From: a virus
IMG/VR virus record: IMGVR_UViG_3300029319_000057
Coordinates: 1 to 56,814 of that record
Reading direction: 5' to 3' (one strand)
Length of the DNA stretch: 56,814 nt
The position numbers and the translations under genes are program-made. Positions 882-27,655 of this stretch are shown here, in pieces. The first letter of the stretch is position 1. Every line of letters starts with the position of its first letter. The notes under the pieces were generated by a model. The model was given only the letters and a program-made list of their open reading frames with translations. It made no database searches and was not told the DNA's origin.

Positions 882-1646
882 TTAAAGGTAATCAAGCACT
901 TGTGTTGCGTCAACATTATTAATTAAGCATTGAATAGCGTCGCGTTTTATCTGAGATATACGCACATGAGCGGTATTCACGTTAATATCTAACTTGCTTG
1001 CAATTTCATTTGCAGAGTGCTTATCACAGTCAAGACCATAGCTTAATCGCAAGACCTCATACTGTTTAAAATCTAAATGCTTTTTCATTAGCTGTAACAG
1101 ATAAGCATTGAGTAAATGTATATTATATGGTTCTGATTTATCAATTACTTGATAAGCCATATTTTCATCCTGTGCAGGATTTTCATCAATGCTAGAAAAT
1201 ACGCTATTAAAAAACATCGCAACCATTTTTTCGTCTTTAGGATTGCGCCTTATTTCATTTAGCTTATGTTCAGGTATGCGTACGCCGCCTCTATTAATAT
1301 CTACGGACCTCCGTACTGCGCCCTTTATTCTTTTTGATAGAAATGATTTAATTGTTTTTTCTTGGTCATCAGACTTCTTTAATGTGTCTCTATCTATTTT
1401 AGTAACAGCAGACCATAATCCGATACTACCTTCTTGTAATAAATCATTTATACTTAATACACCAGATGCTTGGTCTGATGTTGATTGTTTTCTCGCCAGT
1501 GTTTCAACTAACGGTAAAAAATTTATAAAGAGTTCTTCATTTGTTAAATATGTATAATCACCTTCAATTGGTTTTCTTACACGCTTAACAGCCGCTTCAA
1601 CTTCTTTCTTATATCTAACGTAATTAGATATGTTATATTTTCTCAT
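882..1646 (-). CDS. Sigma-70-family RNA polymerase sigma factor
   Basis: A 254-residue protein with the two diagnostic sigma regions. Region 2 is at residues about 64-85, with NDLLQEGSIGLWSAVTKID, which matches the core-polymerase-binding helix of sigma-70 proteins. Region 4.2, near residues 212-242, is a helix-turn-helix with ANEIASKLDINVNTAHVRIS, as in -35-reading domains. Region 1.1 is absent and the region between is short, so it is a compact alternative-type factor. Its ATG overlaps the stop of the upstream HTH regulator by four bases (translational coupling). As the only transcription initiation factor seen in the window, it is a natural candidate to recognise the seven-copy promoter motif; that link is inference. 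Confidence 0.88.
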   Translation of the reverse strand: MRKYNISNYVRYKKEVEAAVKRVRKPIEGDYTYLTNEELFINFLPLVETLARKQSTSDQASGVLSINDLLQEGSIGLWSAVTKIDRDTLKKSDDQEKTIKSFLSKRIKGAVRRSVDINRGGVRIPEHKLNEIRRNPKDEKMVAMFFNSVFSSIDENPAQDENMAYQVIDKSEPYNIHLLNAYLLQLMKKHLDFKQYEVLRLSYGLDCDKHSANEIASKLDINVNTAHVRISQIKRDAIQCLINNVDATQVLDYL

Positions 1647-2504: not shown

Positions 2505-3074
2505 TCAGGCAAAGTTAAGTTTATGTATATCGCTGTTATTAGAGACGAATTGATTGCTATCAATAGTACTATAATAAGTTTCGATAACCTCTCTAGGAAC
2601 TGTGTCGTGTGTATAGGGTTTTTCATTTTTGTTACAAATTTTTCGTTTGTCAATAATATAATATCGCCAGTAACCGTGTATAGCATTTGCCATTTTATAC
2701 TCGTCTGGCATACACTGTGGCGGGTCTGTCCACTCATAGCTAGTTATATTAGCAGGTGGTGTCGCTAAGAAATCTCTACATTTATTTATAGTGAGATGTT
2801 CTTTACCATATCGTTTAGTATATTCTTTACCCAGTGCAATCATATGGTCATATAACCACATATAGTTTGGTATAGAAGTTCTACACCATACAGTTGATGG
2901 GTGATTAAGGTGAGCCTGTTTATAAGGTACGTGTAGCTTTTGTTCTGAACTACCAAACACGTGGTGTGCAGTACAAAGCATTTGTGCGGACTCTAATATC
3001 ATTTTTACTTTATGCTTATCGTAAACATAAGACGCCGCTTTTGCGGGATCGTGGTGTAAGAAAAATATATTCAT
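2505..3074 (-). CDS. Conserved phage protein of the MNIF...KMILESAQMLCTAHH type
   Basis: A 189-residue protein. The N-terminal half begins MNIFFLHHDPAKAA and continues with DKHKVKMILESAQ and LCTAHH, then NHPSTVWCRTS and YMWLYDH. This pattern recurs in many tailed phages of marine bacteria, where it is usually left as a hypothetical protein or loosely labelled a pyrimidine-dimer glycosylase; I cannot confirm an enzyme activity. Conserved His, Cys and Trp residues suggest a catalytic or nucleotide-binding role. Its ATG overlaps the stop of the 3071-3331 gene by four bases, so the two are translated together. Confidence 0.6.
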   Translation of the reverse strand: MNIFFLHHDPAKAASYVYDKHKVKMILESAQMLCTAHHVFGSSEQKLHVPYKQAHLNHPSTVWCRTSIPNYMWLYDHMIALGKEYTKRYGKEHLTINKCRDFLATPPANITSYEWTDPPQCMPDEYKMANAIHGYWRYYIIDKRKICNKNEKPYTHDTVPREVIETYYSTIDSNQFVSNNSDIHKLNFA

Positions 3075-3331
3075 AATTTTTTCTTTAAATAGTTAATTCG
3101 TTGGTTAATTACTGCAGCTTTTTCATATTCTTCAGTTACTAAATACTCTTGTAATATTAACTTTAGATTTTTTATTTCTTCTTTAATATCGTCTTCAGGT
3201 GTTTTAAAACTATCCTGTATTTGTTGGTTAAGAATATCTGCTCCATATGTTGCAGTATCAGGGTCTAAAAATTCTTCGTATAAATCTCTTTTTATACGAT
3301 TATATAATGCTTGGTATTCTTCTTCGCTCAT
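3071..3331 (-). CDS. Small helical protein with a UVR-like C-terminus
   Basis: An 86-residue acidic, helical protein beginning MSEEEYQALYNRI. The reading frame is open five codons further upstream, but those codons are the GATAATATAA box of promoter copy 2, so the ATG at 3331 is preferred. The last 30 residues, LKLILQEYLVTEEYEKAAVI followed by NQRINYLKKKL, look like the UVR helix-hairpin found in UvrB/UvrC and other proteins, which mediates protein contacts. The likeness is short and may be chance. It is coupled to the 2505-3074 gene by a four-base overlap. Confidence 0.55.
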   Translation of the reverse strand: MSEEEYQALYNRIKRDLYEEFLDPDTATYGADILNQQIQDSFKTPEDDIKEEIKNLKLILQEYLVTEEYEKAAVINQRINYLKKKL

Positions 3332-3333
3332 AC

Positions 3334-3367
3334 TTATATTATCCATAGGTTTTCGTGTTTAGTCTGT
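3334..3367 (-). promoter_or_regulatory. Phage promoter motif, copy 2
   Basis: The minus strand reads CAGACTAAACACGA, nine bases, GATAATATAA. The TAA inside CTAAACACGA is the stop codon of the upstream gene (3359-3898). The downstream box ends three bases before the preferred ATG at 3331, so transcription would begin at or next to the start codon. Confidence 0.68.
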
Positions 3368-3898: not shown

Positions 3899-4154
3899 AT
3901 TCTATATCTTCGTTATTAGTTACCATCCACTCGCAATCACCCAATCTGTGACCAGCACCTAATAAAAATGCTTCACAAGATTCATGGTCTGGATTCCATT
4001 CGTTTTCTTCGTTACATAATGCTCTAACATTATATCTATATACTTTACCGTCATTAAAATCTAGTACAAATATATATTTAGCTCGTGCTATTCTGTGATG
4101 AGCCGGTCTTATATCCGTACCATGTTCTAATTCATATGCTTTTCTACTATTCAT
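3888..4154 (-). CDS. Hypothetical protein, 88 residues
   Basis: The product (MNSRKAYELEHGTDIRPAHHR...) has a predicted beta-rich centre with KYIFVLDFNDGKVYRYNV, and a Glu/Cys/His-containing second half. I do not recognise a family. It overlaps both neighbours by about 8-11 bases, which supports translation as part of an operon running from 4605 to 3359. Confidence 0.6.
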   Translation of the reverse strand: MNSRKAYELEHGTDIRPAHHRIARAKYIFVLDFNDGKVYRYNVRALCNEENEWNPDHESCEAFLLGAGHRLGDCEWMVTNNEDIEYGN

Positions 4155-4605
4155 CTTCTTCTAATTTATATTCACCAGAGTCTAATAATTCTTCTTTATA
4201 TTGCTCAAAAAATTCTTCATATACATCAGGCCACCAGCTTTCTAGTTCATGATTAAAATCGTATTCCATATCATCCCATAAGCATGGGTCTATCCATACA
4301 TTATTGCCGTGAGTTATTTCTTCAACAGCTTTTACCGACCAGTCATTATAATCTTCATAATAATAACCGTCTTGTGATATATAAGGTTTATCTTCGTGAG
4401 TACACCAAAATATATCATAACCATCAGAGGTCATTTCAGTATATATTTTTAATGTCCATTTGTCATCTATATAATCACTTGTATTATCTAGTTTACCACC
4501 GTATTCTGTTTCGATATACTCTAGTAACCAGTTGGCATCAGGCTCTTCCATAAAGCCATCCATTTCTAATTTTTCTTTGATTATTTCGTCCGTTAAAATT
4601 TCCAT
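4147..4605 (-). CDS. Hypothetical acidic protein, 152 residues
   Basis: A strongly acidic protein rich in Asp, Glu, Trp and Tyr (for example a run with IDPCLWDDMEYDFNHELESW). Such composition is seen in phage DNA mimics and in host-interaction proteins, but nothing more specific can be claimed. It is the first gene downstream of the tRNA-fMet, which ends 21 bases before its ATG, so it probably lies on the same primary transcript as the structured RNA and the tRNA. Confidence 0.6.
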   Translation of the reverse strand: MEILTDEIIKEKLEMDGFMEEPDANWLLEYIETEYGGKLDNTSDYIDDKWTLKIYTEMTSDGYDIFWCTHEDKPYISQDGYYYEDYNDWSVKAVEEITHGNNVWIDPCLWDDMEYDFNHELESWWPDVYEEFFEQYKEELLDSGEYKLEEDE

Positions 4606-4626
4606 AATTAATTGATTTTCAGTTAG

Positions 4627-4700
<74 letters not shown>

Positions 4701-5279
4701 ATATTTTAACAGTAAGCATTGCGACTCGGTAACGCTGCACCCGCATTGTCGGCTCAAAGGTTTTAACCATTCAACAACCGGCTTGGTACTTACTGTTATA
4801 TTGTAGGGTGGTATCGTGCACAATACCCACGCTTTCAGGAGTAACGGGATAATTAGCATTAAGCCTTCCCCTTTACTGTCCTTCGTGTTTTAACCCTAAG
4901 GCTTCGCCCACGGTTCGGTTGTATTCAGCGTCTCAGTCGTGCACTATCTTTCAAGCTGCAACTGTTCTTAGCTTACTGTTACCGGGCCTCGGTCCCGCCT
5001 CAGTCTCGGGTCGCTCATAATGCTAGTGGAGGATTACCCTCTATCTTGTACTTGCATTAGCGGTGCGCCTCTGACATTAATATTTTCGGGGGAAGAAACC
5101 CCAGCAGTTTCTTCTCATTACAGGTGATTCACATATCGGCACTTAGTCCCTAATGTGATTTGTCTTGGGAGTCACCAACCCTTAAACGAGCCATTCACTT
5201 ATGTGGTGTAACGGAATTTTACCGTACTTGGTTTGAACTACCGTGCTAAACTTGCACACCCTAATTAAGCTACTCGTCT
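4701..5279 (-). ncRNA. Large structured non-coding RNA (GOLLD/ROOL-like by context)
   Basis: About 579 bases without a plausible ORF between a zinc-ribbon gene and the tRNA. GC is 254 of 540 bases counted (47%), against roughly 30% around. Visible helices (plus-strand positions): 4707-4716 with 4789-4798 (10 bp); 4808-4814 with 4823-4830 (7 bp, one bulge, loop containing GTGCAC); 4892-4895/4900-4902 with 4906-4908/4912-4915; 5012-5014 and 5018-5023 with 5060-5062 and 5054-5059; 5123-5127 with 5172-5176; 5129-5134 with 5153-5158; 5205-5209 with 5256-5260; 5211-5214 with 5222-5225. Two pseudoknots: 5088-5091/5099-5102 whose loop pairs with 5108-5114, and 5147-5150 with 5167-5170. Size, complexity, phage setting and the adjacent tRNA match the GOLLD and ROOL classes; membership cannot be proven by eye. 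Confidence 0.75.
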
Positions 5280-5471
5280 CTATTTACGCCGCCATGCTCT
5301 GTGAACACTTGCAGAGACTTCTTGGCTGACGATTTGTATAGTGTTACCCGTCTTGCCGCTGATAATTGGAACGTAACTATATTGTCGTATAGCACTGCAG
5401 GAAACGCAGGTACTATAACCTAAGGCGATACGGCCAGCGGGTATTATATTTGAACATTTACATTTTTTCAT
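5280..5471 (-). CDS. Small zinc-ribbon protein, DksA/TraR-like
   Basis: A 63-residue protein with four cysteines in two pairs, CKC near residues 4-6 and CVSC near residues 22-25. They are separated by NIIPAGRIALGYST, the arrangement of the DksA/TraR C4 zinc finger in many phages. The C-terminal tail ends RAWRRK, also typical of that phage family. Family members act on RNA polymerase or nucleic acid; the exact role here is unknown. It follows promoter copy 3 by eight bases and is the only protein encoded upstream of the structured RNA on that transcript. Its stop codon directly abuts the RNA block. Confidence 0.7.
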   Translation of the reverse strand: MKKCKCSNIIPAGRIALGYSTCVSCSAIRQYSYVPIISGKTGNTIQIVSQEVSASVHRAWRRK

Positions 5472-5475
5472 ACAT

Positions 5476-5510
5476 ATATATTATCGAAAATATTTCGTAT
5501 TTAATTTGCA
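5476..5510 (-). promoter_or_regulatory. Phage promoter motif, copy 3 (drives zinc ribbon, structured RNA and tRNA)
   Basis: The minus strand reads TGCAAATTAAATACGA, nine bases, GATAATATAT. Eight bases separate the GATAAT hexamer from the zinc-ribbon ATG, so transcription should start at about the first codon. No other promoter or terminator is visible before the tRNA, so the zinc-ribbon gene, the structured RNA and tRNA-fMet are probably co-transcribed. Confidence 0.68.
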
Positions 5511-5741
5511 TTATTTTATAACATCAAAATCTATTTCTGTACTTGGGTTAGCTTCTAACCAGTTTAGCATATACTCAATTGTTCTCGTCATTACTGCTTT
5601 TTTCATTTGATTATAGTCATCACCTTCTAACTTATCAAGGTGTGTACCATCAATAGCCCAGTCAATCGAGTCGTCTAATTGTTCTAAACATACTTCGTGT
5701 AAATATTCTGCTACTCTGTCTATATCTTTCATTTTACTCAT
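5511..5741 (-). CDS. Hypothetical acidic protein, 76 residues
   Basis: A small acidic, helical protein (MSKMKDIDRVAEYLHEVCLE...) ending IDFDVIK. The ATG at 5741 overlaps the stop of the next upstream gene. An alternative start is the internal Met at codon 4. Its stop abuts the upstream end of promoter copy 3. No family recognised. Confidence 0.6.
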   Translation of the reverse strand: MSKMKDIDRVAEYLHEVCLEQLDDSIDWAIDGTHLDKLEGDDYNQMKKAVMTRTIEYMLNWLEANPSTEIDFDVIK

Positions 5742-6590: not shown

Positions 6591-6624
6591 TAATATTATC
6601 TTTATGGTATCGTATTTAGATTGC
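6591..6624 (-). promoter_or_regulatory. Phage promoter motif, copy 4
   Basis: The minus strand reads GCAATCTAAATACGA, nine bases, GATAATATTA. The TAA in CTAAATACGA is the stop codon of the 52-residue gene at 6616-6774. The downstream gene starts at 6569, leaving a leader of roughly 15 bases. Confidence 0.68.
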
Positions 6625-6775: not shown

Positions 6776-6919
6776 TTAGTTACTTTCATAAGCTTCGTCT
6801 ATTAAGTGGTTAATTTCTTTTAGTATTTCCTCTTTACTTAAGTCACTGTATTCTAGTCCACTTTTAGTGAACATTTCTATTTTCAGTAACGCTACTATTC
6901 TTTTATCTAATCTACTCAT
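6776..6919 (-). CDS. Small protein, 47 residues
   Basis: MSRLDKRIVALLKIEMFTKS begins this small amphipathic protein with a helical profile ending EINHLIDEAYESN. The ATG overlaps the stop of the 45-residue gene upstream by four bases (ATGA). Function unknown. Confidence 0.5.
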   Translation of the reverse strand: MSRLDKRIVALLKIEMFTKSGLEYSDLSKEEILKEINHLIDEAYESN

Positions 6920-7053
6920 AATATAGTTGTATTATTATATTCGTGTATTTCGTTTATTGCCTGTACAAATTCATCTTTGTCAATTGTACCGTCTTCAAGT
7001 TTACTTATTTGAAAACCTATCTCAGTCATTAATTCTATAAATTCTCTATTCAT
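6916..7053 (-). CDS. Small acidic protein, 45 residues
   Basis: MNREFIELMTEIGFQISKLE begins this acidic small protein, which continues DGTIDKDEFVQAINEI. That stretch resembles a single EF-hand-like loop (DGTIDKDEF), though too short to claim calcium binding. It is joined to both neighbours by four-base ATGA overlaps, which supports an operon 7334-6616 read from promoter copy 5. Confidence 0.5.
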   Translation of the reverse strand: MNREFIELMTEIGFQISKLEDGTIDKDEFVQAINEIHEYNNTTIL

Positions 7054-7334
7054 AATTCAAAATATTGTATGTATTCATCTCTAGTTACTTCGTCTTCGTC
7101 ATGTTTGTCTAAGTGATTTAAGTATAATTCTCTTAGTATATCTTCTAACATTTCTATACTTGTTGACTTTAATCTCTCATCAAACCAGTCTTGATTCACT
7201 ATTCCATTATGTAATACATAGTTACATAATATTGTTTCATTGTTTACGTCTTCTTCTGTTCCCCAGTAGTCTACGTTTTCTTTGTGTTTTACTATTTCTT
7301 TTTTAGTAAAGTTAATAATTTCTTTAGTGTTCAT
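7050..7334 (-). CDS. Hypothetical acidic protein, 94 residues
   Basis: An acidic helical protein (MNTKEIINFTKKEIVKHKEN...) with a C-terminal DEDEVTRDEYIQYFEL. It starts about 25 bases downstream of promoter copy 5, after the A-rich leader AAATTAAAA, and is the first gene of the 7334-6616 group. No family recognised. Confidence 0.6.
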   Translation of the reverse strand: MNTKEIINFTKKEIVKHKENVDYWGTEEDVNNETILCNYVLHNGIVNQDWFDERLKSTSIEMLEDILRELYLNHLDKHDEDEVTRDEYIQYFEL

Positions 7335-7358
7335 TTTTAATTTTTTATAGTTACATTT

Positions 7359-7392
7359 ATATTATCTAAAAAAGTTCGTATTTAGTTTGTAA
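7359..7392 (-). promoter_or_regulatory. Phage promoter motif, copy 5
   Basis: The minus strand reads ACAAACTAAATACGA, nine bases, GATAATATAA. Unlike the other copies it is not overlapped by an upstream gene but faces the non-coding region 7393-7695. It reads into the 7334-6616 gene group. Confidence 0.7.
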
Positions 7393-8186: not shown

Positions 8187-8220
8187 TTATATTATCTAAT
8201 TTACTTCGTATTTAGTTTGC
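8187..8220 (-). promoter_or_regulatory. Phage promoter motif, copy 6
   Basis: The minus strand reads GCAAACTAAATACGA, nine bases, GATAATATAA, which is the exact consensus of the set. It abuts the stop codon of the upstream 8220-8435 gene and reads into the 47-residue gene at 8020-8163 and the 7696-7998 gene. Confidence 0.72.
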
Positions 8221-8458: not shown

Positions 8459-8492
8459 TTATATTATCGAAAGACCTTCGTGTTTAGTCTGC
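8459..8492 (-). promoter_or_regulatory. Phage promoter motif, copy 7
   Basis: The minus strand reads GCAGACTAAACACGA, nine bases, GATAATATAA. It is the outermost copy, at the edge of the divergent region, and reads leftward into 8435-8220. Confidence 0.7.
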
Positions 8493-9427: not shown

Positions 9428-10993
9428 ATGGAATATAATAATCCAAGTGAGATAGTAAAGAATCTGTCTTTCGGGGCAGATGCAAGAGACAAAATAATGC
9501 ACGGGGTTGATAAACTAGCAAATGCGGTTAAATCAACCCTAGGTGCTTCCGGAAAATGCGTTATATACGAAGACGCGTTAGGCCGGCCGGTAATTACAAA
9601 AGACGGTGTAACCGTTGCGGAAAGCGTAGTCTTATATGACCCGGTCGAAAACATAGGGGCAACTCTTATAAAGGAAGCAGCTAGAAATACAGTAAAAGAA
9701 GCCGGAGACGGTACAACAACAGCAACAGTGCTTGCGCAGGCATTGTTGCACCTCGCATATGCAAAAATTAAGGATGAGGGTGTGCGTAATATTAAATTAG
9801 GTATATCCTCTGCCCTTGATAAAGTAACTGAGCACTTACAGGAGGAAGCAATTCCCGTCAAGGATGACATGTTAAGATCCGTAAGTGCTATTAGTTGCAA
9901 TAATGATGAGGCTCTGGGAAATATCATATCGCAAGCCTATTCGAAGGTAGGTAAGGATGGTGTCGTCCTTATGGAAGAGTCTGAGACCCATGACACATAC
10001 GTTAAATTCGTAGAGGGCACACGAATAGAAGGCGGACTCAAATCGCCACATTTTATGACAGATAGAGATAAAGGTAGAGCAGTACTAGACAATCCGTACG
10101 TACTAATAGTTACTTCGCCAATACCTAATATCCGTAAAATACAAAGTGTATTGGAGTTTGTTATTAAAAAGAAAAGGAGCTTATTAATCGTTGCAGGCGT
10201 AGAACAACAACCTATGGCAGCTTTATTAGCTAACAAGGTTAAAGGCAATATAAAAGTTAATGTTGTAGATCTGCCTGGATTCGGACCAACTAAGCAAGAT
10301 ACAGTAGAAGATCTTGCGATATTGACTGGAGCAAAAATAATAGACGAAGAACTTGGTGATGATTTAGATTTAATAAATCCAGATGTACTCGGTGAGGCTA
10401 AGCAAGCTATAACCGATAATACACATACAGTTCTTCAAACTATAGATCAAGGTGAAATTTCTAAAGAACGAGTTAAAAAAGTTGAAAAGAAAATAAAAAA
10501 AGAAAAAGACCCGTACTTTAAGAAGAAGCAACAAGAACGTTTAGCTATGCTAAATGGGCAAGTTGCGATGATAAAAGTCGGCGCCGATTCTAAAATTGAG
10601 CTAAAAGAAAAGAAAGATAGAGTTGAAGACGCTATTTATGCAACTAGAGCAGCATTACAAGAAGGAATAGTATCTGGAGGTGGAATTGCATTATTAGATG
10701 CTCATTATAATATACAGCCTGAAAATGAAGGCGAGCGTATTTTATTAGAAGCTATAAAAGCTCCATATAAAACTATTTTAGAAAATGCTAATTTAGAATA
10801 TAAAGAAACAGGTAAACAAGGGACAGGCGTTAATGTTATATCTGGCAAACAAGTTAATATGATTAAATCCGGTATTATTGATCCTGTGCTTGTAACTAAG
10901 ACAGCGTTAAAAAATGCAGTTAGCGTTGTCAATACTATATTTTCTGCAGATTGTGTAATTTCAAATATTAGAATAGACAATGCAAGCAGTTAA
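9428..10993 (+). CDS. groEL: Phage chaperonin GroEL
   Basis: A 521-residue group I chaperonin. Diagnostic motifs are present: TKDGVTVAESV and GDGTTTATVLAQALL in the N-terminal equatorial ATPase domain, the apical-domain stretch with KIQSVLEFVIKKKRSLLIVA, and DRVEDAIYATRAALQEGIVS followed by GGG in the C-terminal equatorial domain. It lacks the Gly-Gly-Met tail and is some 25 residues shorter than bacterial GroEL. It should fold phage capsid or other proteins in the host cytoplasm, with the GroES that overlaps its 3' end. Base composition changes inside the gene: four lines at 9481-9720 are 45% GC, three lines at 10741-10920 are 29% GC, which suggests a mosaic origin. Confidence 0.95.
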   Translation: MEYNNPSEIVKNLSFGADARDKIMHGVDKLANAVKSTLGASGKCVIYEDALGRPVITKDGVTVAESVVLYDPVENIGATLIKEAARNTVKEAGDGTTTATVLAQALLHLAYAKIKDEGVRNIKLGISSALDKVTEHLQEEAIPVKDDMLRSVSAISCNNDEALGNIISQAYSKVGKDGVVLMEESETHDTYVKFVEGTRIEGGLKSPHFMTDRDKGRAVLDNPYVLIVTSPIPNIRKIQSVLEFVIKKKRSLLIVAGVEQQPMAALLANKVKGNIKVNVVDLPGFGPTKQDTVEDLAILTGAKIIDEELGDDLDLINPDVLGEAKQAITDNTHTVLQTIDQGEISKERVKKVEKKIKKEKDPYFKKKQQERLAMLNGQVAMIKVGADSKIELKEKKDRVEDAIYATRAALQEGIVSGGGIALLDAHYNIQPENEGERILLEAIKAPYKTILENANLEYKETGKQGTGVNVISGKQVNMIKSGIIDPVLVTKTALKNAVSVVNTIFSADCVISNIRIDNASS

Positions 10994-25236: not shown

Positions 25237-27655
25237 ATCAGTTATGAAAAACTACTTTCCAAGTCAAGCTGTTAGTGACGATGAGAAATTATCAATGCAG
25301 TATGGCTTAGAAGTTGCTAAAGCTATAGAAAATGAATGGTTTAAAAAATCTTCTGGTATAAACAGATATTTACAAAATCAAAATCGTTTTCATAAATTAA
25401 GATTGTATGCTAGAGGCGAACAGTCAACACAAAAATATAAAGACGAATTATCTATTAATGGTGATTTATCATATTTAAATTTAGATTGGAAGCCTGTACC
25501 TATTATACCAAAATTTGTTGATATAGTTGTAAATGGTATTGCTGAAAGAACATATGATATTAAGGCATTTTCCCAAGATCCTCATGGTGTAAATCAGAGA
25601 ACTGAGTATATGAAAAGAATGTTAGTTGATATGCAAACGCAAGATACAACACAATATATACAAGAAAATTTTGGAATTAATTTACAAAGCACACCACAAG
25701 ATCAACTTCCAGCAAATAATGAAGAATTGCAGCTTCATATGCAATTAAATTATAAGCAAGCAATTGAAATTGCAGAAGAGCAAGCAATTGAAACAGTGTT
25801 TAATTTAAACAACTATGAATTAATAAAGAAAAGATTTTATTATGATTTAGCTGTATTAGGAATGGGCTGTGTTAAAAATACATTTAATTTATCAGAAGGA
25901 ATAAAAATAGAATATGTTGACCCTGCTAATATAGTGTATTCACATTCAGATTCGCCATACTTTGATGATATATATTATGTTGGTGAAATGAAAACTATAA
26001 ACTTAGTAGACCTTAAAAAAGAATTTCCAAACTTAACTGACGAAGATTTAAAATCAATAACTAAAAATGGAGGTTCTAGTTATAATTTGTTTAATAGATA
26101 TACATCTAGGCATGATAAAACAGATAATAACGCAATAGAAGTTTTATATTTTAATTATAAAACATATATGAATGAGGTTTATAAAGTTAAAGAAACTGCA
26201 ACAGGCGCTGAAAAAATTATTAGAAAAACAGACGCTTTTAATCCTCCACCTGATTCTAAAGGTTTAAGATTTGAAAGAATAGCTAGAAATGTGGAGGTGC
26301 TTTATGAAGGTGTATATATACCAGGCTCAAAACAACTTTTAAAATGGAATCTTTGCGAAAACATGTTAAGAGAAAAAAGCGATTCTAGCAAAGTAAAAAT
26401 GAATTATTCTATAGTTGCGCCTAGAATATATAATGGATCTGTTGAATCTTTAGTTAGCAGAATAACTAGTTTTGCGGACATGATTCAATTAACGCATTTA
26501 AAAATACAGCAGATTCTTTCAAGAATGGTTCCTGATGGTGTTTATGTAGATGCCGATGGTTTAGCTGAAATAGACTTAGGAAATGGTAGTAATTATAATC
26601 CACAAGAAGCATTAAATATGTTTTTCCAAACTGGTAGTATAATTGGTAGATCATTTACTTCAGATGGAGAACTAAATCCGGGAAAAATTCCTATTCAAGA
26701 AATAAATAATTCCGCTGGCACAAATAAATTAGCTGCATTAATAAGTACTTATAACTATTATATGCAAATGATTAGAGATGCTACTGGTTTAAATGAAGCA
26801 AGAGACGCAAGTACACCAGATAAAAATGCCTTAGTTGGAATTCAAAAATTAGCAGCCGCAAATAGTAACACTGCTACAAGACACATATTACAAAGTGGAT
26901 TATTTTTAACTGCAGAAACTGCTGAAAAAATATCATTAAGAATATCAGATGTTTTAGAATATTCTCCTACGGCAACTGCTTTTATACAATCTATAGGTTC
27001 TCATAATGTGGCAACTTTAGATGAATTATCAGAATTGCATCTGCATGATTTTGGTATATTTTTAGAATTAGAGCCAGATGAAGAAGAAAAACAAATGTTA
27101 GAAAATAATATCCAAGTAGCTATTGCACAAAATAATATTGAACTAGAAGACGCTATTGATTTAAGACAAATTAAAAATGTTAAATTAGCTAATCAACTTT
27201 TAAAATTAAGAAGAAAGAAAAAGCAGCAACAAGATCAATTAATGCAACAGCAAAATATACAGGCACAAGCACAAGCTAATGCGCAAGCACAACAAGTTGC
27301 TGCTGCTGCTGAGGTTCAAAAGCAACAATCACTTACTCAAAGTAAAATACAATTAGAATCAGCTAAAAGTAATTTAGAAATGCAAAAATTAATGGCTGAA
27401 GCTAATTTGAAAAAAGAATTAATGACTTTAGAATTTCAAATGAATATGCAGCTGCATAGTGCTAAAAATAATATTGAAAAAGAAAAAATTAAAGAAAAAG
27501 AAGATAGAAAAGACGAGCGAACAAAAATTCAAGCAAGTCAACAAAGTGAACTTATAAATCAACGTAAAAATAACTTACCTCCAAAATCTTTTGAATCTGC
27601 AGGTAATGATATTTTAAGCGGTGATTTTAACTTAGGTGTTTTTGAACCTAGGTAA
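25229..27655 (+). CDS. Portal protein, 808 residues
   Basis: A large portal that follows and overlaps terL by eight bases. The core has the typical helical and beta pattern (PKFVDIVVNGIAERTYDIKA near residue 90; ATGLNEARDASTPDKNALVG near residue 520; ISDVLEYSPTATAF). The last 150 residues are a Gln/Ala/Lys-rich coiled coil (AQAQANAQAQQVAAAAEVQK), as in portals with a long internal barrel. It forms the dodecameric vertex through which DNA is packaged and ejected. Its length is in the upper range for phage portals. Confidence 0.85.
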   Translation: MAESVMKNYFPSQAVSDDEKLSMQYGLEVAKAIENEWFKKSSGINRYLQNQNRFHKLRLYARGEQSTQKYKDELSINGDLSYLNLDWKPVPIIPKFVDIVVNGIAERTYDIKAFSQDPHGVNQRTEYMKRMLVDMQTQDTTQYIQENFGINLQSTPQDQLPANNEELQLHMQLNYKQAIEIAEEQAIETVFNLNNYELIKKRFYYDLAVLGMGCVKNTFNLSEGIKIEYVDPANIVYSHSDSPYFDDIYYVGEMKTINLVDLKKEFPNLTDEDLKSITKNGGSSYNLFNRYTSRHDKTDNNAIEVLYFNYKTYMNEVYKVKETATGAEKIIRKTDAFNPPPDSKGLRFERIARNVEVLYEGVYIPGSKQLLKWNLCENMLREKSDSSKVKMNYSIVAPRIYNGSVESLVSRITSFADMIQLTHLKIQQILSRMVPDGVYVDADGLAEIDLGNGSNYNPQEALNMFFQTGSIIGRSFTSDGELNPGKIPIQEINNSAGTNKLAALISTYNYYMQMIRDATGLNEARDASTPDKNALVGIQKLAAANSNTATRHILQSGLFLTAETAEKISLRISDVLEYSPTATAFIQSIGSHNVATLDELSELHLHDFGIFLELEPDEEEKQMLENNIQVAIAQNNIELEDAIDLRQIKNVKLANQLLKLRRKKKQQQDQLMQQQNIQAQAQANAQAQQVAAAAEVQKQQSLTQSKIQLESAKSNLEMQKLMAEANLKKELMTLEFQMNMQLHSAKNNIEKEKIKEKEDRKDERTKIQASQQSELINQRKNNLPPKSFESAGNDILSGDFNLGVFEPR

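Follow-up and report, generated by a model that had tools for sequence, protein, structure and literature searches.

The GC-rich block at positions 4701–5280 of IMG/VR record IMGVR_UViG_3300029319_000057 (56,814 nt; "the window" denotes this full stretch) belongs, as one allele among many, to a hypervariable locus of RNA modules in marine, probably flavobacterial, phages, a kind of locus previously undescribed within the open-access papers of PubMed Central. We have very little doubt about its anatomy, a modular mosaic in which small guest modules are nested inside host modules. Taken as a whole, the explanation that we find best is a hypervariable module locus devoted to display and counter-defence, to which we give not quite an even chance.

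An RNA block between a zinc-ribbon gene and a tRNA

The GC content of 4701–5279 is 46.3%, as compared to 32.2% across the window and 31–32% in the flanks, and 579-nt windows with a GC content of at least 46% are confined to start positions 4601–4851. An earlier sequence-only reading had singled out this stretch as a non-coding, helix-rich block between a zinc-ribbon gene and a tRNA gene on one strand, and this description proved accurate: the minus strand carries, in order, a promoter-like motif, the zinc-ribbon ORF, the RNA block, a tRNA-Met and more small genes, with the ORF and the tRNA directly abutting the block (Table 1). The sole overlapping ORF (65 aa, 4662–4859) covers part of the block and continues into the tRNA, and in relatives whole modules are shuffled within this region.

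The host of the window phage, already suspected to be a flavobacterium, is probably a marine member of this group, since the phage terminase is 43% identical to those of Flavobacterium elemo phages and 36–40% identical to those of Cellulophaga phages; it is 64% identical to that of an uncultured podovirus.

Table 1. Features of the RNA locus in the window; nested guests are given in parentheses after their host.
Feature	Position	Strand	Remarks
Promoter-like motif AAATACGA-N8-GATAATATA	5477..5501	-	directly upstream of the zinc-ribbon ATG
Zinc-ribbon ORF, 63 aa, basic, CxC...CxxC	5280..5471	-	stop codon abuts or overlaps the first RNA module
RNA mosaic A(I) B O(t) R(C) D E	4701..5280	-	modules identified by conserved cores
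Host module A, GACGAGUAGCUUAAUUAG ... ACAUAAGUGAAU, with outer, middle and inner helices	5188..5280	-	18-nt core in 57 viral stretches; covariation
Module I, AAGUUUAGCA ... CGGUAAAAUUCCG, guest in A	5212..5253	-	free-standing in L003 and L004
Module B	5060..5181	-	common to L002 only
Host module O, GAGGCGCACCGC ... GAGCGACCCGAGAC	5003..5071	-	guest slot differs in each of 4 relatives
Guest module t, in O	5024..5053	-	in module I in L003
Host module R, GGACCGAG..GGUAACAGUA ... GAAU..AACCGA	4906..4995	-	guest C here, K in L002
Guest module C, CAGCUUGAAA..AUAGU..GUGCACG, in R	4934..4967	-	in D in L002, L044 and L154
Host module D, GGGUUAAAACACGAAGGACRG ... GAAAGCGUGGG + compensating hairpin + ACCC	4806..4896	-	mostly a short way upstream of the tRNA
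Host module E, closed by AACAGUAAG/CUUACUGUU	4708..4797	-	AACAGUAGG/CCUACUGUU in relatives
tRNA-Met (CAU)	4626..4700	-	ARAGORN, Rfam; initiator hallmarks read from sequence

Small guests are nested in host modules of constant order

We fetched 80 loci encoding relatives of the zinc-ribbon protein and scanned viral contigs with core patterns of individual modules, including that of a shortened tmRNA described below (A, 57 stretches; O core, 3; E, 9; mini-tmRNA, 37; M, 34; D, 34, mostly chance), which yielded 149 blocks after dereplication. In many relatives the RNA block starts at or right after the zinc-ribbon stop codon. About 40 types of RNA module, 20–120 nt long and with boundaries defined by hand from conserved cores, recur across these blocks; on 20 shuffles of the window, the module definitions fired only for the short types J and W.

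In a two-part module, the core is conserved on both of its strands and lies between an outer and an inner helix. These helices are free in sequence and keep their complementarity, and the cores are conserved internal loops. Guests sit in the inner (apical) helix of the hosts A, TLD (the tRNA-like domain of tmRNA), TL2, D, X, R, O, U, G, S, a, c and I, and eleven guests occur in at least two hosts: K in A, D, R and TLD; M in A, G, TL2, TLD and U; Q in A, TLD and X; J in A, I and TLD; T in A, S and TLD; W in A, TLD and c; f in A and TLD; G in TLD and c; k in Q and TLD; t in I and O; and S2 in S and TL2. Module R is itself nested in the mini-tmRNA in L055 and L218. With a dash marking a slot that holds unclassified sequence, the module string is A(I) B O(t) R(C) D E tRNA in the window, A(I) B O(-) R(K) D(C) tRNA in its relative L002, and A(K) I(t) O(-) R(-) D(-) tRNA in L003; among these close relatives, identical guests C, K and t thus occupy different slots.

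Module D, whose usual place is close upstream of the tRNA, carries the same hairpin in L161 and L003, with and without K in its loop. Such a clean empty-site counterpart, together with the nesting of insertions in loops, might be expected of selfish modules, that is, small mobile elements that insert by preference in the loops of structured RNA and are tolerated without benefit to the phage. We give this idea a slim chance: the A and TLD cores nearly always occur once per contig, no mobilising enzyme was seen, the cores are strictly conserved, and the flanking helices are not copied along with them but adapted to the host slot in question.

When the window block was compared with its relatives by blastn, it matched as broken pieces, some of them non-collinear: the piece 312–362 (module C) follows the piece 360–418 in L002 and, without recourse to module definitions, C lies after the left part of D in L002 and L044 and before it in the window. 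Host modules, by contrast with these moving parts, keep their order, with A before TL2 in 25:0 cases, A before TLD in 38:0, TLD before the tRNA in 23:0 and D before the tRNA in 13:0; TL2 before S (7:2) is the sole exception among those counted. Because of this constancy, and because non-collinearity in the blocks (84/1729 by BLAST) equals that of the upstream coding control (11/241), shuffling of order on a large scale is not supported. It is the small guests that change place, while hosts are either present or absent.

The host TL2 (for example in L032 from about 3295) is also tRNA-like, the second module of this kind: it has a T arm and an acceptor-like stem (GNAACUAG/CUAGUUAC) and lacks an anticodon arm; S2 and o are among its guests.

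Module content turns over between near-identical phages

Module strings differ in 46 of 48 pairs of loci whose flanks are 82–99% identical. Among pairs with 92–99% identity over 1.5–2.9 kb of upstream flank, the median coverage of the block is 0.73 as compared to 1.00 for upstream coding sequence, and none of 5 pairs shares its string; at 87–92% the medians are 0.52 and 1.00 (0/10 pairs share a string), and at 82–87% they are 0.50 and 0.80 (2/33). The guest Q, for instance, sits in module X in L073 and in the mini-tmRNA in L074, with flanks 95.0% identical. The blocks of relatives can be shorter than 100 nt or as long as about 700 nt. Loci that are in conflict with host defences typically show such rapid exchange among closely related phages; fast turnover by itself is no proof of counter-defence.

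Comparative evidence for structure

Folded alone and without constraints, the block is not stabler than its shuffles (z = -0.20); thermodynamic stability is therefore uninformative here, and the evidence for structure is comparative. Covariation was tested for some of the modules. In module A (37 distinct instances, three helices), 93.6% of cells are paired, as compared to 75.1% after shuffling, and covariation reaches 0.495 against 0.152, a value that none of 500 shuffles attained; slid registers all collapse. In the middle helix (GCUUA/UAAGU), C:G has switched to G:C; when this helix is left out, covariation is 0.697 as compared to 0.214 in shuffles. Covariation is likewise found in the mini-tmRNA (41 distinct instances; 0.420 versus 0.097 shuffled).

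Helices in the block itself are borne out by compensatory changes: in relatives, 11 of 16 pairs of module A have changed on both sides, and modules D, E and O have compensating stems. Moreover, the stems of A, Q, K, S, T and the tRNA are more complementary within an instance than after permutation; this comparison gave no information where a module had few variants. Together, these patterns of substitution indicate that the structure of the modules is under selection.

Comparison with known large RNAs

A search of the block against Rfam returned only the tRNA at gathering thresholds, and again at E<=10 on 4600–5500. The GOLLD model (RF02032) gave no match at gathering, at E<=10 (4600–5500) or on the whole record, and the ROOL model (RF03087) gave none in the record, in a search whose control genomes contained no ROOL. 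On these covariance-model searches we reject GOLLD, ROOL and other Rfam families as the identity of the block.

Like GOLLD and ROOL, the block is long and structured, comes from a phage and lies near or beside tRNA genes; in GOLLD, moreover, the 5' part is variable and the env-38 member adjoins a Met-tRNA (PMC12286853). The block differs from them in lacking a fixed architecture: instead of the conserved 3' architecture of several hundred nucleotides that characterises GOLLD, relatives vary in module content and length, many exchangeable modules are nested, and near-identical phages differ in both respects. The sequence-only reading had envisaged one large ornate RNA, perhaps of this cage-forming class. 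What remains of that view is a phage RNA that is structured and linked to a tRNA; the single RNA of fixed architecture gives way to a mosaic whose modules differ from phage to phage, and cage formation is not the natural reading of modules that are gained, lost and differently nested in nearly every phage. Covarying helices without a match to GOLLD or ROOL, which the same reading took as the sign of a new class, are what we observed.

A structural RNA or ribonucleoprotein, formed as one large and possibly oligomeric assembly in which the modules are tolerated variation and the zinc-ribbon protein is perhaps a partner, would suit the size of the block, its linkage to a tRNA, the basic zinc-ribbon gene upstream in most relatives, and the almost invariant order of host modules, which could suggest a fixed architecture. 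We consider it distinctly unlikely, given the range of lengths, the variation in composition at 82–99% flank identity, the lack of a match to either covariance model and the zinc-ribbon ORF that is sometimes missing.

To our knowledge, the large RNAs known from phages each adopt a fixed fold. In this locus, the evolutionary unit is a small RNA module that nests and swaps slots, as genes swap in protein counter-defence islands.

Among Rfam families the modules matched only tRNA and tmRNA, and none of them was matched to a known defence target. Likeness by eye to rRNA (16S h18/h23, the 23S PTC) was rejected: for 52 consensuses aligned to E. coli 16S and 23S, p-values relative to shuffles were approximately uniform (smallest 0.025). 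Beyond the viral contigs, blastn of three whole blocks against 50,697 phage records returned only tRNA and T-arm pieces, sampled cultured relatives had no modules beyond full or partial tmRNA matches, and the 18-nt core of module A occurs in 84,980 bacterial and archaeal genomes (257 Gb) at two unrelated chance sites only. The system is known so far from metagenomic viral contigs only, and no cultured carrier phage was found.

A tRNA-like chassis

The commonest host module, and the chassis in most relatives, is a mini-tmRNA, the TLD of tmRNA with its tag domain replaced by a guest (20–190 nt; about 40 loose families by clustering, probably over-split). In 42 of 50 viral records the Rfam tmRNA model (RF00023) aligns from end to end (1–374) except for its middle, which is deleted (E 1e-8 to 1e-27), usually once per record; in six, for example L038 (60.6 bits), the match exceeds the gathering score. 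ARAGORN did not call the mini-tmRNA as a tmRNA. Like tmRNA, the mini-tmRNA matches both ends of the model and has G3:U70, A73, a T arm and no D stem. Unlike tmRNA, it is 72–130 nt long instead of about 360, and the tag-peptide frame and pseudoknots have given way to inserts that are unrelated between phages.

The pair G3:U70 is the classical alanine identity element. It is G:U in 60 of 60 distinct mini-tmRNAs while the adjacent pair 4:69 varies (C:G, A:U, G:C, U:A), and alanylation of the mini-tmRNA is therefore probably under selection. A cultured distant relative, Cellulophaga phage phi38:1 (L212, KC821614), encodes a full-length tmRNA (26803–27164, 87.6 bits) with the same 3' end as the mini-tmRNAs (CCUCCACUAA), and the G4-type mini-tmRNA keeps its UGGUUUUGAC motif and CACUAA 3' end. 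A full-length tmRNA of this type is a plausible source of the mini-tmRNA. The tag that ARAGORN reads from the phi38:1 tmRNA, AQIEANMEAVNAILNLEVAVGV, is unlike the normal degradation tag.

The window allele lacks the mini-tmRNA, as do L002–L004, and has an initiator-like tRNA as its chassis instead. Its tRNA-Met shows the hallmarks of initiator tRNA (tRNA-fMet), namely an unpaired A1xA72, A11:U24 and a GGG/CCC anticodon stem; some relatives keep these hallmarks in part. No CCA follows it. More generally, in the window and its relatives, the bases that come after the phage tRNA-Met and tRNA-Gln genes and the mini-tmRNAs are mostly CUA, not CCA, and the same holds for the phi38:1 tmRNA.

These tRNA-like parts may instead serve a takeover of translation, with the host ribosome as their direct target, in which the alanylated mini-tmRNA with SmpB would compete with host tmRNA or block rescue, the tRNA would boost phage initiation, and the guests would be mostly structural caps. 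The strict conservation of G3:U70 and the T arm, the initiator hallmarks and the full-length tmRNA of the related cultured phage all speak for such a role, which we nonetheless regard as rather unlikely: it leaves unexplained the approximately 40 conserved guest families in the TLD slot as well as the recurrence of conserved guests in non-tRNA hosts, among them A, G and U, and the TLD is absent from the window and L002–L004.

A putative promoter of the locus

The strict promoter-like motif has six further minus-strand copies, at 252, 3335, 6592, 7358, 8188 and 8460. In the form CAANCTAAATACGA-N8-GATAATATA it spans 252–276, 3335–3359, 5477–5501, 6592–6616, 7358–7382, 8188–8212 and 8460–8484 (-), just 5' of early genes. 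Of 80 relatives, 67 have a looser version of it no more than 120 nt upstream of the zinc-ribbon start, as compared to 329 of 3000 random windows. The motif is probably the early promoter set of the phage. A sigma-factor-like protein (phrog_351) is encoded at 882–1646 (-) and possibly reads it.

The zinc-ribbon protein matches neither Pfam nor PHROG, and its predicted fold (pLDDT 68, pTM 0.35) was too weak for a structure search. In L137 and L217 the promoter-like motif directly precedes the RNA modules without a zinc-ribbon ORF, and the RNA therefore looks like the product of the locus.

The block would form one transcription unit with small early genes, and the terminal tRNA is natural punctuation for RNase P and RNase Z, as one might expect if the modules were cis-acting leader or processing elements that tune the downstream early genes. 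This seems very improbable to us, because identical downstream genes follow different modules, blocks are found with different downstream genes, and such elements have no need for alanine identity.

A candidate RNA display for counter-defence

The fixed order of the chassis, the fast exchange of small modules, the conserved module cores and the tRNA-like ends that could take up an amino acid together suggest stable RNAs that display interchangeable binders. We tentatively propose that the locus encodes interchangeable RNA decoys or inhibitors on a tRNA-like chassis, mainly for counter-defence. With similar reserve, we picture a natural combinatorial RNA display whose roughly 40 swappable modules, presented on mini-tmRNAs that accept alanine, on initiator-like tRNAs and on further folded chassis, would each counter another of the host's defences or translation factors. 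Transcription of the locus would start at the phage promoter that precedes the zinc-ribbon gene; host RNase P and 3' processing would trim the tRNA-like ends; charging with alanine would stabilise the mini-tmRNA; and the displayed modules would bind host proteins or mimic their targets as swappable decoys or inhibitors, most likely against anti-phage defence directed at RNA or translation. The locus would thus work like a natural tRNA-scaffold display.

Phage tRNAs counter tRNA-cleaving defences (PMC11555353, PMC13096335) and, like the tRNA here, are encoded in a variable phage locus; the present tRNA differs in being initiator-like, and tRNA-like parts serve here as a chassis for modules. RNA anti-CRISPRs (Racrs) are a precedent for counter-defence by phage RNA (PMC10651486); the modules resemble them as small structured phage RNAs with a proposed decoy role and differ in being nested and multiplexed. 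In engineered tRNA scaffolds an inserted RNA replaces part of a tRNA and is protected (PMC3753655). The mini-tmRNA with its guests follows the same insertion logic, unlike them as a natural RNA built on the tmRNA domain.

Should the modules be decoys, the locus would offer a library of RNA binders already selected by nature, and the mini-tmRNA would be the natural counterpart of the engineered scaffold; if the display reading is true, the locus would in effect be an RNA-only counter-defence island. The anatomy makes two questions testable: what is the partner of each guest, and does a change of guest alter host range among strains with different defences?

Other genes near the block

Small, very acidic proteins (pI 4.1–4.5) flank the RNA block at 3071–3346, 4147–4605, 5511–5741 and 6916–7334 (-). 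Those tested have no Pfam or PHROG match; they are possible DNA mimics or host-takeover proteins. A phage GroEL homologue (phrog_5725) is encoded at 9428–10993 (+).
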